Source of the DNA: Clostridium ljungdahlii
Lineage (GTDB): Bacteria > Bacillota > Clostridia > Clostridiales > Clostridiaceae
NCBI RefSeq assembly: GCF_001636845.1
Contig: NZ_LITT01000046.1
Coordinates: 1 to 64,000, forward strand
Length of the DNA: 64,000 nt
Reading direction: 5' to 3'
Made by a program: the position numbers and the translations under genes. Below are positions 9,025 through 29,270 of this stretch, in pieces. The notes under the pieces are model-generated. The model had not been told where the DNA came from. It worked only from the letters and a program-made list of their open reading frames with translations, and made no database searches. How positions within the stretch are numbered: the first letter of the stretch is position 1; each line of letters opens with the position of its first letter.

Positions 9025-9115
9025 ATAAGAACTCTAAATCGCTGAAGCTCAAGAGTTCTTATATCTCCCACTTTGATAGAAGTGGGAGTGTTACAGTAGA
9101 TAACCATCAGATAAA
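9025..9115 (+). ncRNA. IS605-like right-end RNA structure, diverged copy
   Basis: Two hairpins, AAGAACTCT../AGAGTTCTT and CTCCCACTT-TGAT-AGAAGTGGGAG, are followed by GTGTTACAGTAGATAACC and ATCAGATAAA. The last part matches the ends of the four related elements (CCATCGGATAAA), here with A for G. It resembles the right end of IS200/IS605 elements, where TnpB guide RNAs arise. No transposase remains. It may now act as a bidirectional terminator between the convergent genes on either side. Confidence 0.55.
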
Positions 9116-9131
9116 ATAAATTTTTAAATAT

Positions 9132-10847: not shown

Positions 10848-10877
10848 TTAAATTATCTCCTTTTTTTAATATAATAT

Positions 10878-12465: not shown

Positions 12466-12482
12466 ATCTAAAAACTTAAATG

Positions 12483-12929
12483 TCAAACTGCCCTCTTCCC
12501 CTTTTTATCACTTAACATGATGCTTGCTGTATTGTATACATAACCGGACAATACATAAAACAAATTTTCCTGCTTATTCATCTTCCACTTTTTAATATTT
12601 GAATCTAGAATTCTCTTTAGTTCATTAAAAATTGCCCTAGTATATCCTCTGACTTTTCCTTGTTCTAGCTTTTCAAAAATTTCTTTAGTAAGTCCCATTA
12701 TTTTTATTTCATTTATGCCAGTACAATTGAGTTTATTAAATATAGATTCCCTATCTTCTGCATTAATTGAATTTTTTTGAGAATTTTTATGGATATCTTT
12801 CCATTGTGCATTTCTCATTTCTCCCATAAGATACCCTAATAAAAACATAGCTACTTCTTCTTGGTCGTATTCCATTTTTTCTAAATAACTTTTAATGTCG
12901 CCCTTTAGGTGGAAACTTCCCCTATCCAT
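12483..12929 (-). CDS. Stand-alone Cas11b-like small subunit (Cas8b C-terminal homologue)
   Basis: The ATG at 12929 follows a GGAGG site with 7-nt spacing and gives 148 residues; the ATG at 12953 has no site. The protein matches the last 134 residues of Cas8b encoded at 39616-41544: AMFLLGYLMGEMRNAQWK against AMFLLGCLIGEIGNAQYK, and NKQENLFYVLSGYVYNTA against NKHENLFYILSGYSYDTT. That part of Cas8b is also headed by an internal start with its own ribosome site, and in type I-B systems yields the small subunit Cas11b, which lines the Cascade backbone. Here it is a separate gene about 27 kb from the cas operon, downstream of topB. Role is unknown: a spare subunit, an interfering paralogue, or a relic of another cas locus. 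Confidence 0.75.
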   Translation of the reverse strand: MDRGSFHLKGDIKSYLEKMEYDQEEVAMFLLGYLMGEMRNAQWKDIHKNSQKNSINAEDRESIFNKLNCTGINEIKIMGLTKEIFEKLEQGKVRGYTRAIFNELKRILDSNIKKWKMNKQENLFYVLSGYVYNTASIMLSDKKGKRAV

Positions 12930-12964
12930 AACCTTTCCTCCTTCATATACCATTTTTGCTTCTC

Positions 12965-13003
12965 ACTATGTTCCTATATTTTCAAATAATATAGGAACAT
13001 AGT
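12965..13003. repeat. Perfect 16-bp inverted repeat
   Basis: ACTATGTTCCTATATT and its exact complement flank a 7-base loop, between the topB stop and the Cas11b-like start. There is no T-run on the leftward side, so it is not a standard terminator for topB. It could be an operator, a processing site or a mobile-element end. Confidence 0.7.
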
Positions 13004-13068
13004 CTATGACTTTACTTGTATTATTCTATAAATAACCATGTTTTCCTTCTTTTTGTTATATAAAACTA

Positions 13069-15486
13069 CTATTTTGTTATTTGCATTTTCCACTTATATG
13101 GATATTTATCCTTATTTTCATTTTCATTTTTTATTAACATAAAATAGGCATCAAAAATATTTCCATCTTTGCTTTTTAAACCTTTAATTTTAACCTTACC
13201 ATTTTTGAGAAGTTCCCTAACTACAGTTTTAGTAGGTTTTTTGCCCATACAAGCCAAATACTTATCATCCTTCCATATAGTAAACTTGCATCCTTCTTTC
13301 CAATTACTACATCCAAAAGCCTTTTTCCCTTCTACAATATCGTGTCCGCAACATGGACATTTTCCTAAAACTTCATTTTCAAAATTAAATACAATTTTTC
13401 CTTCTTTATCAATTACCAAGGAAGCATTAAACTTCTTTCCGCTTTTACTCTTAAATCCTTTTATGACGTTGGTTCTACAATCTTTAATAAGTTTTTTTAC
13501 ATGGGTTTTTAGAATCTCTTTTCCTGCTATTTTATTGCCTACAAAAAACTTACAACCTTCTTTCCATCTATTACAGCCATAACCTGATTTATTTTCCACA
13601 ACTTCTCCTTCATGACATACAGGACACTTTCCAATGCTTTCTATTTTAATTTTACTATCTAATTTATTGTTATATAGATACAGCTTTTCTATTTTAATTT
13701 TATTACCATTTTGGACAATGCTATTTAATTCATCTTTTACTTTATCTATTATTTCACTTATTCCTATTTCCTCTTTATAAACTTTTTTAAGCTGCTTGCC
13801 AAATTCAACTGTTTTTTCTTTATTCAAATCAATCTTTAATTTTTCAAGTGCTTCTATAAGTTTTTTACCCTTATTCTCACATTCTAAGTGACCTTTCAGC
13901 TCTTTTATATACTCATATTTTTTTGCATTTTTAATTATCCCTGCCCTTGTTGCAACAGTGCCTATCTCACAACCTTCAAGTATCAGTTTGTATTCTTCAT
14001 CATCATTTTCACCCTGTAAATCTTCTACCTCCTGCTTTTTAAAAGGATTTTTGAGGAAATTGTTTAGTTCAGATTCTGTTACTCTACCAGGCTTTTGGGT
14101 TTCTTTCTGATCTACTGAGAATTTAGTATCTAACTCCTCTCCTTCTACAAATTGAGGCAATTCATTTTCCCTTTTAGATTTTTCATATTTTAAAAAACCA
14201 GGACTTTTTATAACATTTCCCTTTAATTGAATAATTTCATCATCTATTTTTATTACTACACTTGTTTCTTCTATTATTGTTTCTTCATTTAAAAAATTAC
14301 TTATAAATCTATTTTTTATTGCAGTATAAACCTTTTTTTCACCTTCCGATAATTTTTCCTTTGGTGGAATTTTTATGGTTGGAGTAATTGCACTGTGGCT
14401 TTCTACTTTTTTACTATTAAAAATTTTCTTGTTATCTTTAAAAGATATATCTGCATTAAAATTTTCTTTTACTGCTGCAATTACACTTTTTATTCTATCC
14501 TTTTCATTTTCCGCCAGATACTCTGTATTAGTCCTTGGATATGTAGTATATCCATCTTCATATAGTTTCTGCAAATTTTTTAAAGTATCATCCAAAGACA
14601 TTTTTTCTTCCTTAAACATTTTATTTTGTAAAGTATCCAATGAAAAAAGCTTAGGCGGCTGCTTTTTAACTTTTTTCTTTTCAACTTTATCAACTATAGC
14701 TTTTTTATCTTTCAAGTTATCCAATAATTTTTCAGCTTTATCTCTTTCATTTGCTGCAAATTTTCTATCCTTTAATTTAGCTTTTATATGTAAGTTATCC
14801 TTATTTATGACAGCACCTATCTCAAAATAAGTTTCTGGCTTAAAATTTTCAATTTTTTCATCTCTATCATATACATATTTCACAATAGGAATTAAAACAC
14901 GTCCTACAGGTAAAAATGAACCCGATTTTATACTTAAATACCTGGTTAAATTTATTCCATAACTCCAGTCTAAATATGTTCTTGCCAGTCCTTCATCATA
15001 TAGATTTTTGTATTCTATATCATCTCTTAAATTTTTTAAATTTTGTATAATTGTTTGTCTTGTTTGTTCTGGCAGCCATAATCTTTTAACAGGTTTAGTA
15101 ACATGTTCTTCTTTAAAAGCTCTAAATATTATATTATTTACAATTACTTCCCCTTCTCTATCTGCATCACCACAATTCACTATCTCCTGGGCATCATTTC
15201 TTTTTATTAGTGATTTTATTATTTCATATTGCTTTTTTACTCCTTCATCTTTTCGTAATCTAAATTTAAATTCTTTTGGTACAAAGGGCAGTTCTTCTAA
15301 ACTCCACTTTGTCTTTTCTCTTCCAAAATAATCATCTACGTCATAAAGTTGAAGTAAGTGACCATAGGCAAAAGTAACTATATAATTTTTATTTTCAAAA
15401 TATCCATTATTTCTTTCCATATTACCAATACTCTTGACAATGCTCATTGCCAGGCTTGGTTTTTCAGCTATAATAAGTGACTTCAA
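13069..15486 (-). CDS. topB: DNA topoisomerase III (type IA)
   Basis: The TTG at 15486 follows TTTGGAGG at suitable spacing; the longer frame begins at a TTG that is part of this same ribosome site. This gives 805 residues. A Toprim domain (SLIIAEKPSLAMSIV, then VNCGDADREGEV) is followed by the type IA core with the catalytic tyrosine in YTTYPRTNTEYL. The C-terminus has two repeats of the Cys motif type (CPVCHEGEVVENKSGYGCN and CPCCGHDIVEGKKAFGCS), common in clostridial TopB-like enzymes and plasmid topoisomerases. It decatenates DNA by single-strand passage. The extra zinc-repeat tail suggests a paralogue that may have been acquired laterally. Confidence 0.9.
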   Translation of the reverse strand: MKSLIIAEKPSLAMSIVKSIGNMERNNGYFENKNYIVTFAYGHLLQLYDVDDYFGREKTKWSLEELPFVPKEFKFRLRKDEGVKKQYEIIKSLIKRNDAQEIVNCGDADREGEVIVNNIIFRAFKEEHVTKPVKRLWLPEQTRQTIIQNLKNLRDDIEYKNLYDEGLARTYLDWSYGINLTRYLSIKSGSFLPVGRVLIPIVKYVYDRDEKIENFKPETYFEIGAVINKDNLHIKAKLKDRKFAANERDKAEKLLDNLKDKKAIVDKVEKKKVKKQPPKLFSLDTLQNKMFKEEKMSLDDTLKNLQKLYEDGYTTYPRTNTEYLAENEKDRIKSVIAAVKENFNADISFKDNKKIFNSKKVESHSAITPTIKIPPKEKLSEGEKKVYTAIKNRFISNFLNEETIIEETSVVIKIDDEIIQLKGNVIKSPGFLKYEKSKRENELPQFVEGEELDTKFSVDQKETQKPGRVTESELNNFLKNPFKKQEVEDLQGENDDEEYKLILEGCEIGTVATRAGIIKNAKKYEYIKELKGHLECENKGKKLIEALEKLKIDLNKEKTVEFGKQLKKVYKEEIGISEIIDKVKDELNSIVQNGNKIKIEKLYLYNNKLDSKIKIESIGKCPVCHEGEVVENKSGYGCNRWKEGCKFFVGNKIAGKEILKTHVKKLIKDCRTNVIKGFKSKSGKKFNASLVIDKEGKIVFNFENEVLGKCPCCGHDIVEGKKAFGCSNWKEGCKFTIWKDDKYLACMGKKPTKTVVRELLKNGKVKIKGLKSKDGNIFDAYFMLIKNENENKDKYPYKWKMQITK

Positions 15487-15760
15487 TTTAGTTGATACCT
15501 CCAAAGTTTATGTCTTTGACTTTATTTACAATAAATTTATCCAATAATAATTATAAATAATAAGTTCCCATATAAAAATATACCATTGTACTATCATAAT
15601 GTAAAAACTTAAGGGCAAGATTAGTATTAATTGCAGTAATATGCTATTATTAATTGACTTAACTAAATAAAAATACACATTAGGCATTTGAAAGAAAATA
15701 GACTAGCATACTGACTGGTTATTTCTTTGAAAATGCCTTAATAATGAAAGGTATGAAAAA

Positions 15761-16870
15761 ATGGATTTTAAGGAACTAGAACTTAGTGAAAATATAATAA
15801 CTGAATTAAAACACATGGGAATTACTAAACCAACACCAATTCAACAGAAGAGTATTAATTTTATTATAGAAGGAAAAGATGTTATAGCTGAAGCACAAAC
15901 GGGCACCGGAAAAACTCTTGCTTTTTTGCTTCCTATTTTTGAAAATATATCACCTAATATAAATTCAACTCAAGCACTGATTGTAACTCCTACAAGAGAA
16001 CTTGCTATTCAAATAACTGAAGAAGCTCTAAAACTTAAAAAAGCTAAGGATATAAATATTTTAGCTGCATATGGTGGGAAAGATATAGGTTCTCAGTTAA
16101 AAAAATTGAAGAGAAACATTCATCTAATTATTGCAACTCCAGGTAGACTTTTAGATCATCTTCATAGAAAGACTATAGATCTTAGCAAATTAAAAACATT
16201 AGTATTAGATGAAGCAGATCAAATGCTGCTTATGGGATTTAAAAATGATGTAGAAGATATTATAAAAGAAGTCTCTAAAAAACGTCAAACATTGTGTTTC
16301 TCTGCAACTATGAATTCTGATGTTAAAAAATTAGCTTATAGATACATGACTGACCCTTTAGTGGTTTCCATTAAAAAAGAAGAGGTTACACTTAGTAATA
16401 TTAAGCAATATGTAATAGAAACTACTGATAGAAAAAAGCAAGATGCCTTGTGTAATATTATGGATCAAGATAATCCATTTATGGCTATTATATTTTGTAG
16501 AACTAAAAGAAGGGTAGACAATCTTGAAATTGCACTATATCAGCGTGGATATAATTGTAAAAAACTGCATAGTGATATACCTCAATCAAAACGTGAAAGA
16601 ATAATGAAAGCTTTTAGGAATGCAGATATTCAGTATTTAATAGCTACAGATGTGGCCGCTAGAGGACTAGATATAAGTGGAGTTACTCATATATATAATT
16701 ATGATATTCCGGAAAATGTAGAGTCATATATACATCGTATTGGTAGAACAGGAAGGGCTGGTGAAAAAGGCTGTACTTGTCTATTTGTAGATCCAAAGGA
16801 TAAAAGAACTTTAGAGGAAATAGAAAAAGGTATAAAATCTAGGATACCCAGGAGAGAGTTGAACATATAA
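15761..16870 (+). CDS. DEAD-box ATP-dependent RNA helicase
   Basis: 369 residues, a compact helicase with both RecA lobes and almost no C-terminal extension. Motifs are complete: Q-motif near the start ([12 protein letters not shown]), Walker [31 protein letters not shown], and in lobe 2 [11 protein letters not shown] and [10 protein letters not shown]. It belongs to the DeaD/CshA group that unwinds structured RNA in ribosome assembly and mRNA decay. The lack of a C-terminal RNA-binding tail suggests a specialised or partner-dependent enzyme. A GAAAGG site precedes the ATG. Confidence 0.9.
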
Positions 16871-17238: not shown

Positions 17239-18372
17239 TCACTTTATTATATCTATATTATCAACCAAATCGGGAATATCTTTTCTATAAATTCTTCCTG
17301 AAAAAGCTTCATGTGGAAGTGATATAAATTTAGTACCAGGCTGAATAATCCTGCGGTAAATAGGATCTGCAATAACAGCTTTTGCATTCTTCAAATATGT
17401 CATAATACTATCTTCATCTTCTGCCACAACATCCTCTTCTAATAACAAATCAGCTTCCGTTTCCAAAGGACATAAGACTTTAGCTTTCATATTCTTTTCA
17501 AGTGCAAGTGCTGCAGCTAATGATTCCGAATAAATGCTTTCTCCAATAATAACCGTGTCACCACCACACATAGCTCGTTTATCATATGCAATTTGGGATT
17601 TTCCTGTATCAATTGCCTTATCCAGTGATTTCATTACTACATCTGAAAACTGATCTCCCATTGGAACGCCCACAACATATGGTGTTCCAAACTTTTTCTG
17701 TAATTCTTTTGCTGCAGGAAGTCCAGTAGAAGAAACAACCAAGTTTACTTCTGCAGCTCCAGCTTGTTTCATTTGCTCCAGTGTACTTCCCATTGCCCAT
17801 ACAGATAAAACCTGAAAACCAGCTTCAGTTAATCGTCTTCTAATGCTATCTACACTGCTGTTTACTGAATAATCCAAGGGAGTAACTCCAAGTACATTTA
17901 TACTTTTCGTTCTTTTAGGTAAACCGTCCAAAGTAAATCGTTTTACTATTTCAACAAGAGCTTGTCCTACCCCACGTATGTAAGAGTGCATTCCATTTGT
18001 TTGAACAGCAAATGTAGGAATTTTAGTTTCATTTTCAATCACTTCTGCAATAGCTGGAAAATCTGTGCCTATCATCATTGGAATAGGTGTACCTGCAATA
18101 GCTATAAACTTAGGATGTAACTCATTTGCAGCTGCCACAATATCATGTATTAATTTTTCATCATCACCCATGATAGCTTCCATTTCAGAAAGTCCTGTAA
18201 TATAGATCATACTGTCCATATCATACCAACGTGGTTCGTCATGAGTAGTATATGTTGAATTGCACCCTGATGCATCATGCATTACAGTCATCCCGCCTAA
18301 TTCATATAGTGCGGAACAAACACCTGACACATCTGCGGTATATGTTGAAATAAATGCTGATGCCTGTTTCAT
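17239..18372 (-). CDS. Nitrogenase-like subunit, K/N type, set 2
   Basis: The ATG at 18372 overlaps the stop of the preceding gene (ATGA), giving 377 residues and aligning with the MKGLRKY start of the set 1 homologue. It has the oxidoreductase/nitrogenase component 1 fold. The N-terminus reads DVSGVCSALYELGGMTVMHD and ASGCNSTYTTHDEPRW, so two Cys sit where the component 1 proteins bind an Fe-S cluster. Later IIGESIYSESLAAAL and PHEAFSGRIYRKDI are conserved-looking. It is shorter than NifK (about 500) and should pair with the D-like protein encoded just upstream. It is not a classical nitrogenase subunit; substrate and cofactor are unknown. Confidence 0.75.
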   Translation of the reverse strand: MKQASAFISTYTADVSGVCSALYELGGMTVMHDASGCNSTYTTHDEPRWYDMDSMIYITGLSEMEAIMGDDEKLIHDIVAAANELHPKFIAIAGTPIPMMIGTDFPAIAEVIENETKIPTFAVQTNGMHSYIRGVGQALVEIVKRFTLDGLPKRTKSINVLGVTPLDYSVNSSVDSIRRRLTEAGFQVLSVWAMGSTLEQMKQAGAAEVNLVVSSTGLPAAKELQKKFGTPYVVGVPMGDQFSDVVMKSLDKAIDTGKSQIAYDKRAMCGGDTVIIGESIYSESLAAALALEKNMKAKVLCPLETEADLLLEEDVVAEDEDSIMTYLKNAKAVIADPIYRRIIQPGTKFISLPHEAFSGRIYRKDIPDLVDNIDIIK

Positions 18373-19697
18373 AAGCAGCAACCACACCTCCATCCTTTGA
18401 TTTGTATAAGCTTTCGTACATCTTTAGGATATGTAAAGGCTTCTTTCATAAGTCCAGCAAGTCTCACAATTCCATCAAAGCCGTACATGCCGCCACCTTC
18501 TACTATATTTACAAAGTATTCACTTCCTGTAAAATAAGCAGCCTTTTGTCCTATTGCAAGGCTCTTTTCACTACATTTTCTATCCAGAACACCCATCTTT
18601 GCATGTACTGTAGCATACACTTTAATCTCAGGTTTGTTTTTTACAAGCCAGTCAAAATCTGTCTTGTCCCATTTTGTAAATGAATCTGCATACAGCCTGT
18701 CCACATTAAATCCATTTTCTACAAGCAATCGTGCAAGTCCACAAGGTCTTGGAACAGATGTATAATCTATGGAAATCTTTGCACCACCAATAACTTTTTT
18801 TGCTTCTTTCAAAGCATTTAAAGCTGTTACCTTTTCATCTGTGTATTCTTTTTTTGGTAATCCCAAATATTCGTTCAATGTATTCAAATTTTTTGTTATT
18901 TCATCAAATCCATAACATAAAGGCAAATGCAGGTGCTTCTGTCCTAATTTATCTTGCAAATAGTCTCCACCTGGTATTGCAACAGGCAGATAGGATATGT
19001 TTGTACAGCTTTCAGCCATATTAAGATATTCATCATAGGTCTTGCAAAGAGTAATATCTTTCAGTTCATATCCATTTTCACGAATTGTCCGTATAAGTTC
19101 ACTGCTTTCATCCGTAGGAATATTGTTACCAATGATATTAATGCTTTTTTTGTTAATTTCCATTGGTTGAAGGATGCTGTATAATTGACGTTTCATTTTC
19201 TCATCCGGAGTCAGGCCACTTTTTCTCATAATTGGATCCATATAACAATCCGTGAAAGCTACATCCGGATATCTTTTTCGTAATTCTGTGTAAACTAGCT
19301 CCAAATCACATCCCATAAAATAATGTATGCAGGCAGTAAATATTAGAACTGCCGGAGGTTTTTGTGGAAGTTTATTAAGTATATCCGATACACCCTTAAT
19401 GATAAGTTCCTCCATATCACCTTCAAGCACATTATTTTCCTGCACAGCTATAGTTGAGAATCTGTCCAATGTGCCCATTTCTGCTGCTGTAAGAACAACT
19501 CCTCTTAAACAGTTTGCTGCACATACATATATCTGATGCGACTTTGGAATAAGCATTCCAACATGAACTATATTCCATACTCCCCTAGCAGGAGCGTTAT
19601 ATTGCAGGCCAGATACAAATGGCTCAGGAAATGCGGCATCTTTTATTAAAGTACAGGTACCTGCCTCATCAACGTGTCCAGATACATTTATAAGCAT
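18369..19697 (-). CDS. Nitrogenase-like subunit, D/E type, set 2
   Basis: The ATG at 19697 follows AAAGGAGATATC and overlaps the end of the NifH-like gene by 10 bp; length 442. Component 1 fold, with Cys pairs at about 59 and 63 ([12 protein letters not shown]) and about 128-135 ([12 protein letters not shown]) that could hold a cluster between subunits. The C-terminal half contains [15 protein letters not shown] and [20 protein letters not shown], and it ends in a Cys-rich tail WRCGCCL that is unusual for the family. Such D-type proteins receive electrons from a NifH-type Fe protein at a catalytic or scaffold site. None of the group's known members (NifD, NifE, BchN, BchY, CfbD, MarD) could be assigned with confidence. 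Confidence 0.75.
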
Positions 19698-20458
19698 GAT
19701 ATCTCCTTTCCACATATCCTCATGATAATCTCTGCCAGCTTTCTATACTGTTTTGCCATATCACTTTCAGGAAATGCTTCTATTACCGTCTTGTTCAAAG
19801 TTTCTGCTTCCTGAACGACTTCACTTCTATCCAGGGTACCAACTATTTCTGAATGAATATCCTCTGCCAATTCGCCTACTTTTTCGTATTCATTCTTCAC
19901 ATCTTTTCTGTTAAGAATAAGCCCTCCAAGGCCAGCATAACCTCTGTTTTTAAAATTTTCTATAGCCATTGCAATATTGGCGGCTGCATGAATAGCCATG
20001 TTTTCACCTGAGGTTATAATAAATACTTTATCTGCATAGCCCTTACGCATTGGCATAGAAAACCCTCCGCATACTACATCACCCAATACATCATATATTA
20101 CCACATCTGGTTTATATACTTCATATGCACCTTTTTCCTTCAATTTTTCTAGTGCTGCTATAATTCCCCTTCCTGCACATCCAAGGCCTGGATTAGGTCC
20201 ACCTGCTTCCACACATATGACACCATTGTAACCAACAGTGACCATATCTTCTAAATCAAAATTATTCTTCTTTTCCCTTACAAGTTCAAGCACTGTATTC
20301 ACGTTTCTTTTATCATGAAGTGAAACTGTAGAATCAGCTTTAGGGTCACATCCTATCTGCATAACCCTTATTCCTCTATCAGAAAGTGCGGCTGATATGT
20401 TAGAAACTGTTGTAGATTTTCCAATACCACCTTTTCCATACACTGCAATTTTTATCAT
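19688..20458 (-). CDS. NifH-like Fe protein, set 2
   Basis: 256 residues with the whole NifH-superfamily signature: P-loop [24 protein letters not shown], and both cluster-ligand Cys contexts, [14 protein letters not shown] and [14 protein letters not shown]. It should be an ATP-driven homodimeric reductase with a single bridging 4Fe-4S cluster that feeds the following D/K pair. Length and motifs are complete, so activity is likely. It lacks the longer C-terminus of NifH. Its gene follows the inserted four-helix cassette, which may provide or block its transcription from the upstream hyp genes. Confidence 0.9.
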
Positions 20459-20502
20459 AATGTGTTTCCTCCATACTCTAACTCAAATTTCTCACATACA
20501 AG

Positions 20503-21245
20503 ATTTGACTTAATATAAACAAAATGCGAAGCATTTTTTAAAGGACAGAGGACAATTGACAGAGGACAGTGATTGTTGCTTTTCCTACGTTACACTACAG
20601 AAAACCTTTAATTATTTCTCATAACTAGATACCTTTGTTACAAGCCGTTAGGCTATATCAATTGTCAATCCTCTATGATTTTTAAATTTTTCTTTGTGGT
20701 TTTAACAATAGAGTTTAAAATTTTATTTAGTTCCTTACATTTAATAATAAATTTCTCTGATGCGTTAACATCAATATATTTAGTAGCAATTAAAAGTTCT
20801 AACCAATACTCTGTTTCAGATGCTTCTTTAAGGGCTATATTCATCTTATTCAAAAAATCTCTTCTACTTTGAGCTTCTAGTCCTTCTTTTACGTTTGCTC
20901 CTATACTTATTCCTGATCTAAGAACCTGCTTTGAAATAATGTATTCTTTCTTCTCTTCAACCAAATATTTATATAAGTTAACAATTTCTTTTGCAAAAAC
21001 AAAGTCTTTTTTATAAGTTAAGTTCTCTTTCAATCTTTAACCTCCTAAATTTATCAATTCATCTAAAATATTAGACTTATTCATATAAACTTATTCAGCT
21101 TTTAAAAAATATAAAATCTAGATTTATAAATTAAAGATTTTTCGTAGCATAGCGAAGAAAAATTCTCCTTCACTGTCACTTGTCCTCTGTCATCTGTCCT
21201 CTCAAAAATAATGCTTCGTATTTTTTTAACTGTAAAAGTTGAGTT
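20503..21245. mobile_element. Inverted-repeat cassette carrying a four-helix-bundle gene
   Basis: The left arm includes GCGAAGCATTTTTTAAAGGA, then CAGAGGACAATTGACAG; the right arm has the inverse of the same motif (CTGTCACTTGTCCTCTGTCA, then TGTCCTCTC, then ATGCTTCG). Outer ends match the empty element at 16880-17220 (TTTGACTTAATATAAA). The cassette contains one gene (20665-21033). It splits hypE from nifH-like set 2 and is oriented with the operon. The end of the gene also overlaps a copy of the GAGGATTGACAATTGA motif. Transposition enzymes are not encoded. Confidence 0.65.
20665..21033 (-). CDS. Four-helix-bundle protein (S23 / Avd-like family)
   Basis: 122 residues starting at a TTG behind AGGAGGTTAAAGA. 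It belongs to the four-helix-bundle family found in 23S rRNA intervening sequences and, as Avd, in diversity-generating retroelements: KKDFVFAKEIVNLYKYL, then SKQVLRSGISIGANVKEG, then ALKEASETEYWLELLIAT. Family members form pentamers and bind nucleic acid; Avd partners a reverse transcriptase, but none is present here. The gene is the only cargo of the inverted-repeat cassette around it, so it is more likely a passenger or part of the element than a component of the metal-cofactor operon. Confidence 0.85.
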   Translation of the reverse strand: MKENLTYKKDFVFAKEIVNLYKYLVEEKKEYIISKQVLRSGISIGANVKEGLEAQSRRDFLNKMNIALKEASETEYWLELLIATKYIDVNASEKFIIKCKELNKILNSIVKTTKKNLKIIED

Positions 21246-21274
21246 TTAATTTACTAGTGTTTTACTCTATTGTA

Positions 21275-22279
21275 TTAGCATATTCTTGGAAGCAATTCTC
21301 CTCCCGGAGGCGGCAGCAATGTTTCAGCACCAATTTCTGTTTTTACAATAACACGCCCTGGCATATCACAAGTGACCTCACCAATAATGGCCGCATCTTT
21401 GGAATATTTACCTTTATGTAATGTATCCACAAGTTTCGGAGCAATTTCTTTTGGAGCAAAAACCACAAGTCTTCCTTCACATGCAAGATATAGTGGTTCC
21501 AGCCCCAGCATGCCGCATACGCCTTTTACACCATCTGCTACCGGTATACTCTTTGAATCCAGTCTAATTCCGACTTTGCTCTGCTCAGCAATTTCATATA
21601 ATACCGTACCGACACCTCCACGTGTAGCGTCTCTGATTACATGAATATCTTTTGACGTATCAAACATAGCTTTTACTGTACCCCATAACGGTGCACAATC
21701 ACTGGTTACATCTGCTTCAATTCCAAATTCATTTCGTGCCAGTAAAACAGTACATCCATGTCGCCCTATATCACCAGTTACAATAATTGCATCACCTGGT
21801 TTTGCATTAAAGCCAGAGGTGTTAGCGTCATCCATAATCTGTCCTATACCTGTTGTCGTTATAAATACACCATCGACTTGTCCTTTTCCAGCCACCTTTG
21901 TATCTCCTGCGGCTATTTTAACCCCTGCTTCCTTTGCAGTCTTTTCCATAGCTGCTGCAATTTTCTCTAACTTGTCCATTGGAAAGCCCTCTTCAATAAC
22001 AAAAGCACAGGATAAATACAGAGGTTTCGCTCCCATACAGGATAAGTCATTTACTGTACCACAAATGCTCAATTTACCAATATTCCCACCTGGAAATTCC
22101 GATGGAGAAACAATAAATCCATCTGTTGTAAAAGCTAGTTTTCCGACCTTAATGTTCAATACTGCAGCATCATCTGCTGTCAGGTCAGGATTCGAAAAAT
22201 GAGCTCTAAAAACCTGATCTATTAATTCTGATGTTTGTCTTCCTCCAGCTCCATGAGCTAGTGTAACTGTTTTATCCAT
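21275..22279 (-). CDS. hypE: Hydrogenase maturation protein HypE
   Basis: 334 residues with the AIR-synthase-like fold: TLAHGAGGRQTSELIDQV, DDAAVLNI, then AGDTKVAGKGQVDGVF and IRDATRGGVGTVLYEIAE. It ends in the obligatory PRIC, whose terminal Cys receives the carbamoyl group from HypF and is dehydrated with ATP to a thiocyanate. This is the cyanide donor for the Fe(CN)2CO unit on HypC-HypD. The start overlaps the end of hypD by 8 bp. The protein is complete and expected to work. Confidence 0.95.
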   Translation of the reverse strand: MDKTVTLAHGAGGRQTSELIDQVFRAHFSNPDLTADDAAVLNIKVGKLAFTTDGFIVSPSEFPGGNIGKLSICGTVNDLSCMGAKPLYLSCAFVIEEGFPMDKLEKIAAAMEKTAKEAGVKIAAGDTKVAGKGQVDGVFITTTGIGQIMDDANTSGFNAKPGDAIIVTGDIGRHGCTVLLARNEFGIEADVTSDCAPLWGTVKAMFDTSKDIHVIRDATRGGVGTVLYEIAEQSKVGIRLDSKSIPVADGVKGVCGMLGLEPLYLACEGRLVVFAPKEIAPKLVDTLHKGKYSKDAAIIGEVTCDMPGRVIVKTEIGAETLLPPPGGELLPRIC

Positions 22280-23330
22280 TTATTTTTCCTCCATACTGAT
22301 AATATGCTGAACATGCTCCTTCATTAGATACCATACAGGCTCCAACGGGATGTAGTGGTGTACATCCTTTGCCAAATACTTCGCAATCCGATGGCTTGCA
22401 TTTTCCCTGCAAAACATCACCACATCGGCACGCCGGATTGCTTCTTCCCTCTACTTTTCCTAAATGAAATTTGTCTCTGGCATCAAACTCTTTATAAGCT
22501 TCTTTCAATTTAAGACCTGAATTTTTGATAATACCAAGTCCTCTCCATTCAGAATCACAGTCCTCCATGACTTCAGATACAATAGTCTGAGCCGCTTTAC
22601 TGCCTTCACGCGTTACAACTCTAGGATAACAGTTTTTAAAAAAGCTGCCTCCTTCTTGTAATTTTGTGATTACTACAGCAAGTGCTGTCATGATTTCATT
22701 TGCAGTAAAACCTGTTACTACTCCGCTAACACCTTCGTTAACTAAAGACTCACACAACTCCGTACCTGTAATCGCATGTACATGGCCAGGATATAAAAAT
22801 GCATCTGCGCTATTTTTTAGTGTCTTGTATACTCCCGGCATGGTTTTGTTTGCCGTAAGTAATGCAAAATTTTTAAGTTCTGCACCTTTTGCCTTTTTTA
22901 CAGCCAGACAACTGGCAGGTGTGGTTGTCTCAAATCCTACTGATAAAAATACTACCTGCTCATCAAGGTGGTCTCTAGCATACTCATAAGCATCAATAGG
23001 TGAATATACTATTTGAACTTTGGCGCCTTTTGATCTAGCTCCAGCAAGGTTCATTTCTGAACCAGGCACTCTTACTAAATCTCCAAAGGTACATATGGTG
23101 ACATTATGGTCAAGAGCCAGCATAATAGCTTCATCAATAAAGCCAACAGGTGTAACACAAACCGGGCATCCCGGTCCTGATATGAGTTCAATGTTTTCCG
23201 GTATTATGTTTCTGATTCCAAGTCTGAATATCTCATGGGTATGAGTTCCGCAAACCTCCATAATACGGATCTTTGGTCCGTCGTAGGATTCAATAATCTC
23301 CTTTGCAGTTTTTTTTATGTTCTCAGCCAT
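22272..23330 (-). CDS. hypD: Hydrogenase maturation protein HypD
   Basis: 352 residues. Key motifs are intact: the N-terminal RIMEVCGTHTHEIFR; the GPGCPVCVTP redox pair; PGHVHAITGTEL; and the C-terminal 4Fe-4S region CRCGDVLQGKCKPSDCEVFG then GACMVSNEGACSAYY. HypD forms a complex with HypC that carries the iron atom while two cyanides and one CO are added. It overlaps hypC at TAATG and hypE by 8 bp, so translation is coupled through the block. Confidence 0.95.
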   Translation of the reverse strand: MAENIKKTAKEIIESYDGPKIRIMEVCGTHTHEIFRLGIRNIIPENIELISGPGCPVCVTPVGFIDEAIMLALDHNVTICTFGDLVRVPGSEMNLAGARSKGAKVQIVYSPIDAYEYARDHLDEQVVFLSVGFETTTPASCLAVKKAKGAELKNFALLTANKTMPGVYKTLKNSADAFLYPGHVHAITGTELCESLVNEGVSGVVTGFTANEIMTALAVVITKLQEGGSFFKNCYPRVVTREGSKAAQTIVSEVMEDCDSEWRGLGIIKNSGLKLKEAYKEFDARDKFHLGKVEGRSNPACRCGDVLQGKCKPSDCEVFGKGCTPLHPVGACMVSNEGACSAYYQYGGKING

Positions 23331-23536
23331 TATAATTCCTCCATGATTTTATCTGTTTCACTCTGATCATCGTTTGTAATTTTTGAAATGGCGATTCCTG
23401 CATGAACCATAACATAATCACCTGGTTCCAATTCGTCGATTAATTCTGCAGATACCTTTCTTTTTGCTCCCGAGGCATCAATTAGAGCCATTCCTTCTTT
23501 AACCTTTACAACTCTTGCTGGTAGACCTACACACAT
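23330..23536 (-). CDS. hypC: Hydrogenase maturation chaperone HypC
   Basis: 68 residues beginning MCVGLPARVVKV; Cys 2 (exposed after Met removal) is the essential iron-binding residue. The OB-fold core ending in PGDYVMVHAGIAISKI is typical. HypC/HybG chaperones deliver the Fe(CN)2CO group to the hydrogenase large subunit. Its start lies 38 bp inside the end of hypF. The family includes short chaperones that serve one target only, so its natural partner, hydrogenase or otherwise, is an interesting question here. Confidence 0.93.
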   Translation of the reverse strand: MCVGLPARVVKVKEGMALIDASGAKRKVSAELIDELEPGDYVMVHAGIAISKITNDDQSETDKIMEEL

Positions 23537-25898
23537 AGTTATTCTCCTCTCCTCTTTTTAATTTATTTATATGTTCCATTGCCGCTACTGCCTGACCTAG
23601 TGCTATTCCACCATCATTTGGCGGCAGCAAACTATGAATTAAAACTTTAAATCCAAGTTTTCTCAGACGATCTAAGCTCATTTTTAATAATAGCTGGTTT
23701 TGATATACTCCTCCGCTTAACGCTATGGTTTTGATTCCAGTGTTTCTAGAAGCTTGTATACATCCAGCTGCAATCATGTCTGACAATTTTTCATGGAAAA
23801 AGTAAGCAAGCATCGCTGCATCTTTTCCAACTAAAGTTTCCTCTATAATTTTCTTTACTAAAACATCCGTTGCCAAAATTAACTGTCCATCTGAATTCTC
23901 ATAAACAAGATTTGAAAGTTCAATACTATCTACATCAGAAATTTTGATGCCACTATTATGAACTGCACGTTTTTCTTCATAAGCCTCTGCTGCAAATTCA
24001 AGGGTAGTAGAAGCTTCCCCTTCAAAAGATGATTGTTTTCTGATATTCAAGATAGCACTTACAGCATCAAACAAACGCCCTGCGCTTGTAGATGTTATGC
24101 TGTTTATTTTGTTATCAGCCATCATAAACTGAACATCGCAGTTCTTCTCATCACATAATTTAAGCTGTTTTACAATTTCAGCTGCTTTTACTTTATCTTT
24201 GTATATGCTGTAAATCATGGATACTGCAATTCGCCAGCCCTCTTTAGCTGACATGTCACCACCAATCTGGACAAATGGTTTTATGCTGCCAAGCCTTTCA
24301 AATCCATCATAAGTAACTTCTAATAGTTCTCCACCCCAAATGGTTGCATCTGTTCCATATCCTGTTCCATCAAATGAAACACCTATAACTGGATCAGAAT
24401 AATCATTTTCAGCCATACAGGATAGGATATGTGCATAATGATGTTGAACCTGCAGTACGGGAATTCCAATTTCCTGTGCGACGTACGTAGTATTATACTT
24501 TGGATGCATGTCACATGCCACAATTGTTGGCGTCGTCTCAAGCAAAGTTTCCAATCTCGTAATAGACTCTTTCAATGCTTTTACTGTTCTCAAATCTTCC
24601 ATGTCACCAATATAGGGTGATTGATAAAACAAATCATTTTTGCCTATACAAAAAGTATTCTTGAGTTCACCGCCAACTGCCAGTACTTCCCCTTTAAATC
24701 CCTTTGAAACCATAAACGGCAGCGGTGCATATCCTCTGGAACGCCTTATCATATAAGGTTTTTCTTCAAAGAAATCCATAACCGAGTCATCTGCACGAAT
24801 GCGAATCATTCGGTTATGTGATAAAATAACATCACACATCTTTGATAATTCTGTTATTGCATCATTGTCATCCCTGCATATTGGTGCACCTGATGTATTG
24901 CCACTTGTCATGACAAGACAATCCGGCATGACTATATCATCATCATATGTAAATATCAAAAGCTGCAAAGGAGCATAGGGAAGCATAACTCCAACTTTGG
25001 GATTATCAGGTGCCACAGCATCACAAACCATTCCATTTGGCTTTCTTTTTAGAAGTATAATTGGTTTCTGATGTCCATCCAATACTTCTTTTTGAACTTC
25101 TTTAACTTCACATTCACGTTCTGCAGTTTCCATGTCCCGCATCATAACTGCAAATGGTTTTGCAGGTCTTATTTTTAATTTTCTAAGCCTCTCTACAGCT
25201 TCCTGATTTGTGGCGTCACAGCAAAGATGAAAACCTCCAATTCCCTTTATAGCTGCAATCCCTCCATCATGGATTACTTGTCTTGTATAAGTAATTGCAG
25301 CCCTGCCCCTCTCACTTCTTCCAATTAAGTAAACCTCCGGGCCGCATTCATTGCAGCATACCGGCTGTGCATCATATCTTCGAGTTTCTGCATGAGTATA
25401 TTCATATTCACACTCCGGACACATTGGAAATTCTCCCATGCTGGTACGCACACGATCATAAGGCATGGAATCTAAAATAGTAAGTCTTGGTCCGCAGCAC
25501 GTACAGTTTATAAAGGGATGAAGATATCGTCTGTTATTCTTATCAAAAAGTTCCTTTTTACACTCTGGACAGATGGCAATATCAGGAGATACAAAAATCT
25601 CACCCTGCACATGTTCACTTTCAATAATTTCAAAGTTCTGAAATTTTTCTGATTCTTCCTCTTTATGCACATCAATTTTTAATATTGACGAACGCTTTGG
25701 CGGGTTGTGTTCTAAATCGTACAAAAAACCTTCTAATTCACTTTCACTGCCCTGAGCCCATATTTCTACATAAGGTCCTTTATTGCATACACTTCCCCGT
25801 ATATGGTTTTTATCTGCATGACGACTTACTGTAGGTCTAAATCCAACTCCCTGTACAATACCATAGACTCTAATGGATAAAGTTTTACAATCTTTCAT
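23499..25898 (-). CDS. hypF: Hydrogenase maturation carbamoyltransferase HypF
   Basis: The ATG at 25898 overlaps the stop of the preceding nitrogenase-like gene (ATGA), giving 799 residues; an upstream GTG at 25907 is less likely. Domain order is normal: acylphosphatase (VYGIVQGVGFRPTV, about 7-95), two zinc motifs (CPECKKELF..CTCCGPR and CPECEYEYT..CNECGPE), YrdC-like (AIKGIGGFHLCCDA), and Kae1-like C-terminus (VQHHYAHILSCM, GVSFDGTGYGTD, ALSGGVYQN). HypF makes carbamoyl-adenylate from carbamoyl phosphate and loads HypE. Direct stop-start overlap with a nitrogenase-like gene is uncommon for hypF and is the main hint that the two groups belong to one operon. Confidence 0.93.
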   Translation of the reverse strand: MKDCKTLSIRVYGIVQGVGFRPTVSRHADKNHIRGSVCNKGPYVEIWAQGSESELEGFLYDLEHNPPKRSSILKIDVHKEEESEKFQNFEIIESEHVQGEIFVSPDIAICPECKKELFDKNNRRYLHPFINCTCCGPRLTILDSMPYDRVRTSMGEFPMCPECEYEYTHAETRRYDAQPVCCNECGPEVYLIGRSERGRAAITYTRQVIHDGGIAAIKGIGGFHLCCDATNQEAVERLRKLKIRPAKPFAVMMRDMETAERECEVKEVQKEVLDGHQKPIILLKRKPNGMVCDAVAPDNPKVGVMLPYAPLQLLIFTYDDDIVMPDCLVMTSGNTSGAPICRDDNDAITELSKMCDVILSHNRMIRIRADDSVMDFFEEKPYMIRRSRGYAPLPFMVSKGFKGEVLAVGGELKNTFCIGKNDLFYQSPYIGDMEDLRTVKALKESITRLETLLETTPTIVACDMHPKYNTTYVAQEIGIPVLQVQHHYAHILSCMAENDYSDPVIGVSFDGTGYGTDATIWGGELLEVTYDGFERLGSIKPFVQIGGDMSAKEGWRIAVSMIYSIYKDKVKAAEIVKQLKLCDEKNCDVQFMMADNKINSITSTSAGRLFDAVSAILNIRKQSSFEGEASTTLEFAAEAYEEKRAVHNSGIKISDVDSIELSNLVYENSDGQLILATDVLVKKIIEETLVGKDAAMLAYFFHEKLSDMIAAGCIQASRNTGIKTIALSGGVYQNQLLLKMSLDRLRKLGFKVLIHSLLPPNDGGIALGQAVAAMEHINKLKRGEENNYVCRSTSKSCKG

Positions 25899-26956
25899 AT
25901 CATACACATCTTTCCCGAAACTGCAAAATGTGGTGTACCCACATACCTTCCCTTGAAGTTAGGTATTGCACGTTTCAATATATTATCACCTACAATTACA
26001 TCGTAATTTCCTTGTTCTATAAGTTCTACAAACTGATCCTCTTCTGTAAGAGAAATATCCTTTGCTTCTTTAAGCTCGTCCTTTAGCATAAACCAGGAAG
26101 CAACTGTTACATCTGAGTTCACATTTTCATTTATTTTATCTCTGATAGAATTTGCTATAACCTGCTGATGTATTACTAAAACTTTCTTACCTTCAAAATA
26201 TTTAAACTGTTCTTTCATCTCATCCTGTAACATATCTCCTACCAGCGGATAATAAACTTCATAAGGTGTCCCAAATCTATCTTTTAAATACTGTGCAGCT
26301 TTTAATCCAGCAGGTGATACTACTATATTTTTAAATACACTCCCTGCAGCCTCTACCTTTGACAAATCTGCACCCATACCATAACAGTAAACATTTTTGA
26401 AGCCCTCAGATTTTAGTGTCATTTCTATTTTATCTGCTGCCTTTAAATCACTTACATCAAGTGGGATTGTACCAATTACACCAATACCTTCTTTATCTAC
26501 TGTGAGGCCATCCTTTGCAAAGGTCTTAAACGTTTTAAGATAAGCTTTTTCAGCGCCCACATCATATAAGTCCATACCAGTAGTTTCTATAGTAATAACC
26601 GGTACATCAAGTTTCCTTTCTGACATTTTCTTTATTGCTTTGTAATCAGTAGCAATAACTGACGGTACCGGAGTTCCGATAATTGCTGCAAATTTAGCTT
26701 CCACTTTTTTAGCAGCATCTGCAAGTTTTGCCACGAGCCTGTCATCACGCCCAAGTATGGCATCCATATCACGAAGACCAGCACTGAAAATGGCACTTTT
26801 TTCTGCAGCCCATCTAGGCTCATCGAATCCACATACGTTACCAGCACATCCCCCTGCATCGCAGATAACTATAATTCCCCCAAGCTTATAAAGAACAGAT
26901 GCTGCACCAGACTGATCTGGTGCAAAAGGTGGTATGTATTTTCTTAATCCTTTCAT
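25895..26956 (-). CDS. Nitrogenase-like subunit, K/N type, set 1
   Basis: 353 residues, short for the component 1 family, starting at the base after the upstream stop. The N-terminus PFAPDQSGAASVLYKLGGI is aligned with set 2 but has Ala where set 2 has Cys (GAASV against GVCSA). The next motif CDAGGCAGNVCGFDEPRW keeps Cys residues. Later conserved-looking blocks are IVVSPAGLKAAQYLKDRF and the C-terminal GRYVGTPHFAVSGKMCMI. The changed ligand position implies a different bridging cluster or a different ligand set from set 2. It should form a heterotetramer with the 434-residue protein. Confidence 0.75.
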   Translation of the reverse strand: MKGLRKYIPPFAPDQSGAASVLYKLGGIIVICDAGGCAGNVCGFDEPRWAAEKSAIFSAGLRDMDAILGRDDRLVAKLADAAKKVEAKFAAIIGTPVPSVIATDYKAIKKMSERKLDVPVITIETTGMDLYDVGAEKAYLKTFKTFAKDGLTVDKEGIGVIGTIPLDVSDLKAADKIEMTLKSEGFKNVYCYGMGADLSKVEAAGSVFKNIVVSPAGLKAAQYLKDRFGTPYEVYYPLVGDMLQDEMKEQFKYFEGKKVLVIHQQVIANSIRDKINENVNSDVTVASWFMLKDELKEAKDISLTEEDQFVELIEQGNYDVIVGDNILKRAIPNFKGRYVGTPHFAVSGKMCMI

Positions 26957-28261
26957 CTATGCCTCCTTACCAAAACAATCCAGCGAATGTTTCAATTCCT
27001 CAAATAATTTTTTTACACCAGCATACCCAAAGGGCTGAATGTCCTCATTCCAAGGTACATTTACACAATCAGGATGGTAGTACTCTGCATCCTTGCCAAT
27101 GGTTATATCAATCTTTTCTTCACTGCAGTCATAATAAATCATGGTAGGTTCAAGATTGGAATAAATCTTAGTATCAGGACTTAATTTTGCAATTTTTCTG
27201 ATATAAACAAAGTCTTCAGCCGTAAGACTAGCATATATTTCAGCTACTTTAAATCCATATCTTAAAAGTGCCAAGGAAAGCTCAAAAGAATTAGCATTCA
27301 TTGCTTCACCTACTGCAAAAGTTATATCAGGATAAGCAGCTTTTAATTCATCTATGGCCCTTTTTGCTTCATCATAATACTTTTGATCATCAAAGCTTGT
27401 ACCAAGAGCATTGGTAAAAATTTTGTATTGATTCTGCACTTTATCTATCTGGTACAATCTTATAAGCTCTGCTGATGGAATATTCAGTCGTTTCATAATA
27501 TCATCTGCTGCAAATCTTGCTTCTGGATTCAATACAAGATTAAAATTTGCCTCGCCCATATGCATATATTCATCAAAATCTTTACAGCGGGAGATCTCAT
27601 TTATTTTCTTCATGCCAATATGGTGCAGCAAATCATATAGTTCTGAGGTTTCCATAAGTGGAGCAAAATATCCCAGTATATTAACTGTATCCGGCTTTTT
27701 TTCCATTGGTTTAAGAAGCGAATAAATGGACTGCCTTACATGTACCATAGGAGGCTTACGACCTTCTCTTGTTAATGCATACATATAACAGGGCAGAACA
27801 GGAATATTCACCCTATCCATAGCTTTTCTGCAAACACGTTCCATGTCTGTTCCGAGAAGTGCATCAACACATGTAATACAAATCATAACCACTGATGGCA
27901 TACTTGGTGTACACTTACAAATCTCTTCAACTGCCTGTGGAATATTCTTCAAATGAGCTCCAGTAACAATATCAGTTTCATCCATTACCAAGTAGAACAT
28001 TCTCTCACTATATCCACCCTGTTCACTTAATGTTGTTGTATTCCTTCCGCAGCACCCAGGAGCTACTAAAAGCATAACTGACCCTGGTATTGCCAAGGCT
28101 GCACGCTTAACTCCAAACCCTTGCGCACCAGGTGAATTAAAAGAAAGAGTTGCTGGTGAACTGTAAATCAAATGGGTATTTGAAATAAGTTCTGCAGGAA
28201 TATTACTTTTGCCTGCTGCAGCTAAGTTTTCCGCTGTAATACAATATGACTCTTTTTTCAT
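26957..28261 (-). CDS. Nitrogenase-like subunit, D/E type, set 1
   Basis: 434 residues; its ATG overlaps the NifH-like stop (ATGA). Component 1 fold with Cys-rich motifs [19 protein letters not shown] (about 67-85) and [18 protein letters not shown] (about 123-140), the usual positions for a cluster between D and K subunits. The region [18 protein letters not shown] near residue 33 resembles the substrate-side loop of the family. The C-terminus contains [20 protein letters not shown]. No clear assignment to NifD, NifE, Bch, Cfb or Mar groups is possible by eye. It differs strongly from set 2, so the two are not a recent duplication. Confidence 0.75.
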
Positions 28262-29019
28262 TTCATTTCCTCACTTTTAATCAATAATTTGGCTAAATTG
28301 AAAAAGCACTTACTTATTGGAAGGTTAGGGTCTCCTTCAATAACTGTTTTCCCCATCTCCTCAAAGTGATTGATATTGTTGTCTCTTGGGATATCACCTA
28401 CAATAGGAAGATGTTCCTTATGGGCAAAATCTTTTACTTTTTCTTCTTCATTTTCAATATTTCTATGATTGAATACGATACCAAACACCTTTGCATAACC
28501 TCTATCTGCAAAATTTTTAACTGCACTATTTATATTATTGGCTGCATAGAGGGCCATTTTTTCACCAGAAGTAACAATGAGTACTTTTTCAGCATATCCT
28601 TCACGAATAGGTGCTGCAAATCCACCACAAACTACATCGCCTAAAACATCATAAAGTACAACATCTGGCTTGTATTCTTCAAAAAGATTTAAATCCTCTA
28701 ATAAGTTAAATGTAGTAATAATTCCTCTGCCTGCACAACCAAGTCCTGGTGTAGGGCCACCAGTCTCTATACACAGAACGCCGCCAAAGCCTACTTTTGA
28801 AATATCTTCAATTTTTTCTGGATCTGCATCAAATTCTCTCATATAATTCATTACAGGCATTAATGCTTTTCCTCCAAGCAAATTGCTATTGGAATCCGCT
28901 TTAGGATCACATCCTATCTGAATAACTTTTTTCCCAAGCTTGGCAAAGGCTGCTGACAAATTACTGGTAATTGTAGATTTGCCAATACCGCCTTTGCCGT
29001 ATATAGCTATTTTCAGCAT
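28258..29019 (-). CDS. NifH-like Fe protein, set 1
   Basis: 253 residues, first gene of the operon. Complete motifs: [43 protein letters not shown] and [17 protein letters not shown], so nucleotide-driven electron transfer through a subunit-bridging 4Fe-4S cluster is expected. It is clearly related to the set 2 Fe protein but many surface positions differ, suggesting each Fe protein has its own D/K partner. It starts behind AGGGGGTTAAAAA. Regulation is likely through the structured, terminator-bearing leader upstream. Confidence 0.9.
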
Positions 29020-29060: not shown

Positions 29061-29092
29061 AAAAAAGCTCCTCCCAAGTTTGGGAAGAGCTT
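29061..29092 (-). terminator. Leader terminator (possible attenuator) before nifH-like set 1
   Basis: Leftward, AAGCTCTTCCCA and TGGGAGGAGCTT form a stem of about 12-13 bp, followed by a T-run, 42 nt before the first gene and inside its untranslated leader. A terminator placed after the promoter and before the start codon implies conditional read-through. Confidence 0.7.
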
Positions 29093-29132
29093 AAATGCGG
29101 TCATAATATATGAATAATACACAATATATTAA

Positions 29133-29182
29133 TTTTTCACTGCCCGCTCTTTATCTCAGGACACCTTCGCTTCAGAGTGACA
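29133..29182 (-). repeat. Structured REP-like segment in the operon leader
   Basis: Leftward, GTCACTCTGAAGCGAAGGTG then TCCTGAGATAAAGAGCGGGC then AGTGA: outer arms TCACT/AGTGA and inner TGTCC/GGGCA can pair. The GAAGCGAAGG type of sequence is reminiscent of dispersed palindromes in clostridia. It might be a repeat element or a ligand-sensing domain; no known riboswitch class was recognised. Confidence 0.35.
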
Positions 29183-29241
29183 AAAATATTAATTTTTAAT
29201 TAATACATCAAATAAACATTTTCTAAATTTTTTATATATTT

Positions 29242-29270
29242 AGTTTATCACCTAAAATTGGTACTGTCAA
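29242..29270 (-). promoter_or_regulatory. Promoter of the nitrogenase-like / hyp operon
   Basis: TTGACA (complement of 29265-29270) and TAAACT (complement of 29242-29247) are separated by exactly 17 bp. Transcription would begin near 29235, giving a leader of about 215 nt. Confidence 0.65.

Follow-up and report, generated by a model that had tools for sequence, protein, structure and literature searches.

In the HydE-HydF-HydG pathway of [FeFe]-hydrogenase maturation, HydG is the usual source of the CO and CN ligands of the H-cluster, which it makes from tyrosine and supplies as Fe(CO)2(CN). In the HypABCDEF pathway of [NiFe]-hydrogenase maturation, HypE and HypF are dedicated makers of cyanide from carbamoyl phosphate, and HypCD carries Fe(CN)2(CO), that is, two CN and one CO. 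We analysed a 64,000-nucleotide stretch of Clostridium ljungdahlii (contig NZ_LITT01000046.1, positions 1 to 64,000 of the forward strand; hereafter the window), which is contig C36 of a 4.36 Mb genome (G000) and in which, as the original prediction stated, two nitrogenase-like H-D-K (HDK) gene sets enclose hypFCDE on a single strand. All the genes listed were confirmed on the minus strand between 17239 and 29019, in the order H1-D1-K1-hypF-hypC-hypD-hypE-(cassette)-H2-D2-K2. As in the HypABCDEF system, HypC, HypD, HypE and HypF are present with conserved cysteines, but the HypD belongs to a clade of its own, a [NiFe] client is usually missing, and hypA and hypB form no part of the conserved ten-gene unit. 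As in the HydE-HydF-HydG system, HydE, HydF, the [FeFe]-hydrogenase regulator TM1266 and [FeFe]-hydrogenases accompany the genes, often in the same cluster, but HydG stayed under its curated cut-off in 60 of 63 genomes with the module, that of the window included, and hypCDEF and two HDK sets stand in its place. DPOR (BchNB/ChlNB), CfbCD and NifEN have the same nitrogenase-component fold and an Fe-protein partner, but the H, D and K proteins of the module fail all NCBIfam cut-offs and have no tetrapyrrole or iron-molybdenum cofactor (FeMoco) context. Judging from gene content and genomic distribution, the operon is probably an [FeFe]-hydrogenase maturation system, which would provide a HydG-independent route to the H-cluster in place of HydG, both in clostridia that ferment gas and in many bacteria of the gut.

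An association of NifHEN-like proteins with hyp genes, though uncharacterised, had already been pointed out by Dos Santos et al. in 2012 (PMC3464626); the original prediction knew of no characterised system of this kind. Compared by description, the red clade of that study (Coprococcus catus, Dorea longicatena; Mlab_1040, Dhaf_1539) has, like the module, two conserved cysteines in D and one in K, and occurs as two linked copies that adjoin genes for hydrogenase maturation, but those passages name neither a client nor HydG. For acetogens, the relevant sections of Di Leonardo et al. (2022; PMC9431212) report that hydG was not found in five of eight Clostridium acetogens and hypA/hypB not in five; they assign hypCDEF to [NiFe]-hydrogenase, explain the missing hydG by an atypical HydG or trace CO/CN, and use a motif to designate one protein of C. 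autoethanogenum as HydG. In the passages concerned, the principal H2-oxidising enzyme of C. autoethanogenum is reported to be HytA-E (PMC9040625), and HytA-E is reported to be in complex with formate dehydrogenase (PMC9004356, citing Wang 2013). Within the open-licence literature of PubMed Central, we found no paper joining the NifHEN-hyp linkage with the missing hydG of acetogens.

The layout recurs far beyond chance and is a conserved module. A scan of a species-genome collection with D1 returned 419 relatives, the best 80 of which were kept as loci. All ten genes are present in 48 of these 80, in two gene orders (34 and 14 loci); hypF comes immediately after K1 in all 71 loci that have both genes, and many of the incomplete loci lie close to contig ends. 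The recurring module genes span many genera, with D1 identities of 60-97% (Clostridium ragsdalei P11, at 97%, is the closest named genome), and their hosts include Lachnospiraceae (Blautia, Roseburia faecis, Coprococcus comes, Anaerobutyricum hallii), Megasphaera, Coriobacteria and others. In L100, L121, L133, L134, L138 and L141, most of them from Coriobacteria, hypCDEF and D2 occur without H2. Among 20 HypD neighbourhoods of the window's own family, the module was found in 12, with all ten genes in 11 of them, and the hyp genes of the remaining eight are 30-46% identical to those of the module and have no HDK genes beside them. Pairwise identities of D1, K1, D2, HypD, HypE and HypF correlate (r 0.75-0.93), as joint inheritance would predict. 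Four flanking gene clusters recur in at least three of the 13 family loci (window counted), three limited to the closest relatives and one a methyl-accepting chemotaxis receptor. Since no flanking gene recurs widely, the ten genes appear to be the unit; metabolic neighbours were rejected as a clue to a substrate on the same grounds. As variants, D1 and K1 are fused into a single protein of 791-870 aa in three loci of one family (L255, L256, L257), and one genome (G463) has a further H-D-K set on another contig (L267).

Genome-wide searches covered 50 of the 80 loci, those in longer stretches less three, together with 13 module genomes of the window's family, giving 63 genome handles for 62 distinct genomes (G575 and the family genome G104 are one and the same). 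The 13 family genomes are spread over four genera and rated 99-100% complete, completeness figures being given for family genomes only; by title, the 50 others are 15 isolates and 35 metagenome-assembled or uncultured genomes. The HydG cut-off was passed by none of the 15 isolate-titled genomes and by none of the C. ljungdahlii-group genomes G000, G136 and G142, and at E 0.001 the sole match of the HydG model in G000 (68 bits) is its HydE. A hidden HydG was considered and rejected: among the 30 loci read for the HydG model, the C-terminal cysteine motif occurs in the three above the cut-off and in none of the other 27 (about 184-228 bits), and the four that were scanned are ThiH. Across 146 family genomes, HydF was found in 137 and HydG in 127. 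The 137 HydF-positive genomes divide into 10 with the module and no HydG, three with both, one with neither and 123 with HydG only (Fisher p 6.7e-12, relatedness ignored), so that the module is present in 10 of the 11 that have HydF and lack HydG. A genome was called module-free when it had no PF00148, or no HypD, or hyp genes at the HypD locus that were 28-53% identical to those of the module; 30 of the HypD loci judged by hyp identity are only about 3-4 kb long. In one HydG-positive genome (G084), set 2 is absent at the module locus (L049), an observation confined to that locus, as if the module were decaying once HydG is present.

The module also stands with the other genes of [FeFe]-hydrogenase maturation. 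When the genes around the 80 loci were clustered, HydE, HydF and TM1266 emerged, and their families were then confirmed: at least one of the three lies within the fetched stretch of 54 loci (TM1266 in 39, HydF in 21, HydE in 12), and in 45 it is on the same strand and within 300 bp of the module or inside it. L118, L130 and L135 have HydE and HydF inserted between D1 and K1, and in L252 and L253 a single run comprises HydF, both sets, the hyp genes and TM1266 (K1 of L252 being masked by a longer overlapping frame). None of the three families was found in 18 module-free HypD loci of the window's family (L232-L248, L250; 13-19 kb each). HydE of G000 scores 377 bits against TIGR03956 (cut-off 255), its HydF was detected at E 3.2e-177, and all 13 family module genomes are HydF-positive. 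The [FeFe] domain PF02906 occurs in all 64 genomes searched (the 63 module genomes and G006). The [FeFe]-hydrogenase motifs L1 and L2 are present in all 30 [FeFe] loci read, and the strict L3 pattern in 21, failing in the locus of G000. Because the module so often stands with HydE, HydF and TM1266 and complements HydG, we take the H-cluster as its likely client, which replaces the unknown substrate or new cofactor-bearing reductase that had been proposed as the target.

The module could also serve [FeFe]-hydrogenase in another manner: the HDK sets might supply something else, such as the dithiomethylamine bridge or an iron-sulphur precursor, with CO and CN being adventitious or coming from an atypical radical S-adenosylmethionine (SAM) enzyme. 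The trace diatomics or atypical HydG proposed in the relevant part of Di Leonardo et al. would agree with this, as would the roughly 1% activation in vitro by HydE and HydF alone that is quoted there (PMC9431212). Against it, the HydG model at E 0.001 recovers nothing in G000 but HydE. HypE and HypF, the dedicated cyanide makers, moreover stay with the HDK sets, and we consider a supply of bridge or precursor unlikely to be the role of the module.

Several observations weigh against the module taking the place of HydG. Three module genomes have both (G004, G106, G084), and one genome with HydE and HydF (G006) has neither HydG nor the module, reflecting an assembly gap or another route. With metagenome-assembled or uncultured titles in 35 of 50 genomes, some absences of HydG or of a [NiFe] large subunit may be gaps, and the Fisher test does not account for the relatedness of 13 module genomes from four genera. 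The 18 control loci come from a family in which the module itself rarely adjoins Hyd genes, and lineage is thus unmatched in that comparison. In G000, HydE and HydF lie on other contigs (C16 and C63), and the Hyd genes are likewise apart from the module throughout the window's lineage; the genome-wide HydF search covered the family genomes. The ligand set of HypCD differs from that of the HydG synthon, which has one CN and two CO, and extra chemistry must be assumed. Finally, a [NiFe] large subunit is present in nine of the 13 family module genomes, including G000, where it is on a separate contig (C22); in six of the [NiFe]-bearing family genomes (G000, G136, G142, G051, G004, G084) the module HypD is the only HypD; and the sister group of the module HypD clade consists of three HypDs from [NiFe] loci. 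It is possible that in those six genomes the module serves [NiFe]-hydrogenase as well.

The [NiFe] large subunits of the family would suit the simpler view raised in the original prediction, that ordinary [NiFe] maturation genes merely drifted into an operon of unrelated nitrogenase-like genes, as would the assignment of these hyp genes to [NiFe]-hydrogenase in the relevant sections of Di Leonardo et al. (PMC9431212); G000 has one [NiFe] large subunit and no HypD other than that of the module. However, no large subunit (PF00374) was found in 44 of the 50 module genomes outside the family, whereas HypD was found in all 50, with the hyp residues conserved. The PF00374 matches in the other six are frames of 361-390 aa aligned to the first 70 model positions, and each of these genomes has another HypD on the same contig, 1.7-5.3 kb away. 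A tree built from 87 HypD sequences groups the 28 module HypDs into one clade (100/99), apart from 52 other family HypDs and seven further HypDs of module genomes, the three sister sequences being among these seven. Six HypD-positive genomes of the family have no [NiFe] large subunit: four have the module (G001, G008, G046, G104), one has a partial HypD (G043) and one a remnant (G056). Given the NiFe-free module genomes and the separate HypD near [NiFe] large subunits, we reject [NiFe] maturation as the sole role. Neither of the two outcomes that had been named in advance as telling against a functional link, strict co-occurrence with [NiFe]-hydrogenase and loose linkage to the HDK sets, was observed, and with K1-hypF adjacency unbroken the drift of ordinary maturation genes is largely refuted and extremely improbable. 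Two further family loci (L245 in G063, L246 in G027) encode a divergent HypD and a HypC, with no hypE or hypF recognised nearby; their HypDs form a deep branch of their own.

As to the HDK proteins, H1 and H2 pass the Pfam family Fer4_NifH, and D1, K1, D2 and K2 pass Oxidored_nitro. The original prediction allowed that both sets might fall into a group of known function; on NCBIfam cut-offs, the one test applied, no H, D or K protein passed for Nif, Vnf/Anf, Bch or Cfb, the nitrogenase scores being 325 and 315 against 394 bits for H and at most 71 against 505 for D/K. The two sets are paralogous, with identities of 50% for H1/H2 and, by profile, 32% for K1/K2 and 24% for D1/D2. Both cluster cysteines are kept in H1 and H2, and the alignments show invariant cysteines at C71 and C131 of D1, C69 and C129 of D2, C37 of K1 and C44 of K2. 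They match the P-cluster sites, two in alpha and one in beta, that the passages concerned of Dos Santos et al. (PMC3464626) describe for the red clade. The fit rests on an alignment for D1 C131, a weak second-domain alignment (to the NifN cysteine) for K2 C44, a profile for D1/D2 and a motif only for D1 C71. By analogy with DPOR, whose interface [4Fe-4S] cluster has an open ligand, this pattern suggests one such cluster in D/K. D1 has, in the alignment, an asparagine in place of Cys275 of the nitrogenase alpha chain, the FeMoco ligand, so that no FeMoco is expected in D1; its invariant H396 lies in the general region of the cofactor ligand His442. D2 has no PDB relative by sequence. Its AlphaFold2 model (mean predicted local distance difference test score, pLDDT, 87) retrieved NifK, NifN and DPOR subunits in Foldseek with template-modelling (TM) scores by query length of 0.55-0.68 among the 50 matches displayed, and its similarity to methylthio-alkane reductase (Mar) is a fold-level match (TM about 0.6).

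The Fe-protein tree places H1 and H2 in two clades (99/94 and 100/95), the first with L258, L259 and L261 as its sister (100/99) and the second with L264, at weaker support (81/89). HDK sets beside FecCD-type importers are among the nearest relatives of both module sets, but there importer parts adjoin and no module hyp genes were recognised. In L259, L261, L262 and L263, the confirmed neighbours of HDK include FecCD-type or periplasmic-binding parts of importers; L258 has a MalK-type ATPase nearby, and a MoeA-like gene adjoins K in L264. As a group, L258-L264 comprise further nitrogenase-like sets, HDK or DK, in which no module hyp genes were recognised. Two loci have set 2 with an importer ATPase fused to TM1266, a FecCD permease and a binding protein, and module hyp genes were recognised in neither stretch: L265 (G460; 7015-16154, minus strand) also contains HydE and HydF, whereas in L266 (G482; 6812-14667, minus strand) neither of these two was recognised. 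The only D gene found in either genome is set-2-like. On contig C63 of G000 (L270: 6678-11370), two more nitrogenase-component-1 genes and a NifH-like gene precede one for a radical SAM protein; in the H tree, the product of this NifH-like gene is distant from either set of the module.

Alternatively, the D/K proteins might carry an Fe-CN-CO cofactor of their own and reduce an unknown substrate, with a regulatory or indirect coupling to HydE/HydF. D1 has no cysteine ligand of the nitrogenase cofactor and the two sets keep few P-cluster cysteines, which leaves room for another cofactor, and several relatives adjoin metal-chelate-type importers. However, this accounts neither for the near-complementary HydG pattern nor for the HydE-HydF pair lodged between D1 and K1, and no candidate substrate gene occurs in at least three of the 13 family loci beyond the closest relatives, the chemotaxis receptor apart. 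We therefore hold a cofactor-bearing D/K reductase to be very unlikely.

For making the H-cluster without HydG, the following scheme is offered tentatively, as possible rather than probable: nitrogenase-superfamily enzymes would act directly on the iron-cyanide-carbonyl complex delivered by HypCD and so yield the Fe(CO)2(CN) synthon, with CO arising through ATP-driven reduction and not from tyrosine, and in the variants G460 and G482 a ready-made iron precursor might be imported. As their families suggest, HypF and HypE would make cyanide from carbamoyl phosphate, not tyrosine, and HypC-HypD would assemble an Fe(CN)2CO-type unit. Cys2 of HypC, Cys27 and the other cysteines of HypD, Cys334 of HypE and the finger cysteines of HypF, the active residues of these proteins, are conserved (35, 56, 53 and 64 aligned), so that cyanide synthesis should be intact. 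Less securely, HypC/HypD may pass the Fe-CN-CO unit to D1K1, not to a [NiFe] large subunit, and H1 may feed low-potential electrons to D1K1 through the interface [4Fe-4S] cluster. Both ATP-dependent reductases would reduce the iron and/or swap CN for CO, possibly with CO from CO2, and HydE and HydF would convert the resulting synthon to the [2Fe] part of the H-cluster; we infer reduction and/or exchange from the difference between the units carried by HypCD and supplied by HydG. Set 1 adjoins hypF wherever both are seen, and set 2 is also found without hyp genes beside it; speculatively, set 1 would be coupled to HypCDEF, and H2-D2K2 would act downstream, nearer HydE and HydF. Equally speculative is the thought that the TM1266-fused FecCD-type importer of the hyp-less variant may bring in the iron precursor. 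The earlier suggestion that HDK-like enzymes take part in building or reducing an Fe-CN-CO unit that HypCDEF makes gains support from the tight linkage and the NiFe-free genomes.

If correct, this reading would explain both what the NifHEN-like proteins linked to hydrogenase do in gut Firmicutes and how C. ljungdahlii-group acetogens make active [FeFe]-hydrogenase when no HydG was found in the genomes of the group that were searched (G000, G136, G142). Nitrogenase-like enzymes would gain a role in organometallic ligand chemistry, and engineering a second route to the H-cluster. It would also bear on the H2 metabolism of human gut Blautia, Roseburia, Coprococcus and Anaerobutyricum, and on industrial gas fermentation.

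Table 1. Features of the operon and its upstream region, in window coordinates.
Feature	Position	Strand	Basis
Promoter-like TTGACA-17-TAAACT (extended -10), upstream of operon	29242..29270	-	Consensus scan
Conserved 5' leader before H1 with intrinsic terminator (hairpin 29092-29065)	29061..29193	-	Alignment, fold
H1, NifH-like ATP-dependent Fe protein, set 1	28258..29019	-	PF00142 298.7 bits; cluster Cys C95, C131 in 65/65 aligned
D1, NifE/D-like subunit, set 1	26957..28261	-	PF00148 105.5 bits; best in PDB nitrogenase alpha and NifE chains; C71, C131 in 68/68
K1, NifN/K-like subunit, set 1	25895..26956	-	PF00148 64.7 bits; C37 in 65/65 aligned
hypF, carbamoyltransferase	23499..25907	-	TIGR00143 772 bits (cut-off 466); finger Cys kept, 64 aligned
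hypC, 68 aa	23330..23536	-	Cys2 in 35/35
hypD, sole HypD match in G000	22272..23330	-	TIGR00075 392 bits; module clade 100/99
hypE with C-terminal Cys334	21275..22279	-	TIGR02124 417 bits; C334 in 53/53
Four-helix-bundle (23S rRNA intervening sequence type) open reading frame, 122 aa, inserted cassette	20665..21033	-	PF05635 98.7 bits
H2, NifH-like Fe protein, set 2	19688..20458	-	PF00142 298 bits; 50% identity to H1; clade separate from H1
D2, nitrogenase-component-1-like subunit, set 2	18369..19715	-	PF00148 73 bits; AlphaFold2 mean pLDDT 87; Foldseek NifK, NifN, DPOR
K2, NifN/K-like subunit, set 2	17239..18393	-	PF00148 119 bits; C44 in 49/49 aligned

The scores of HypE, HypD and HypF in Table 1 are above the NCBIfam equivalog cut-offs. 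Within each of the two gene runs, neighbours abut or overlap by 1-38 bases (with start codons as picked by the open reading frame tool), which bears out the stop/start overlaps described originally; the ATGA common to K1 and hypF applies only if hypF begins at its second in-frame start. The open reading frame between the runs is outside the module proper, as it occurs in one of 12 family relatives (L050) and one of the 80 other loci (L064, on the same contig as L050). The surrounding cassette (20543-21240) is flanked on both sides by similar short repeats, as judged by eye, is shared with C. muellerianum (L050/L064) and not with the other 11 family module loci, and looks like a recent insertion.

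Upstream of H1, the leader has a core of about 49 bases that is almost invariant across eight aligned Clostridium modules, and its fold has a z-score of -3.2, terminator counted in. A possible antiterminator (AAGAGC against GCTCTT) was noted by eye. The leader matched no Rfam family at the gathering threshold, and a model of it (R1) gave no match with E < 0.3 in 99 other sources searched, Lachnospiraceae loci included. It is a candidate attenuator or riboswitch. The promoter-like site is alignable in several relatives, and the scan overall gives no more sites than shuffles; it is likewise a candidate, scan and alignability being no proof of function.

Elsewhere in the window are two CRISPR-DR2 arrays (32161-33736 and 43921-47112) with cas1 and cas4 between them, a C-terminal fragment of Cas_TM1802 (12483-12953), and two T-box leaders above the Rfam threshold (47797-48012 on the plus strand and 51329-51530 on the minus strand).

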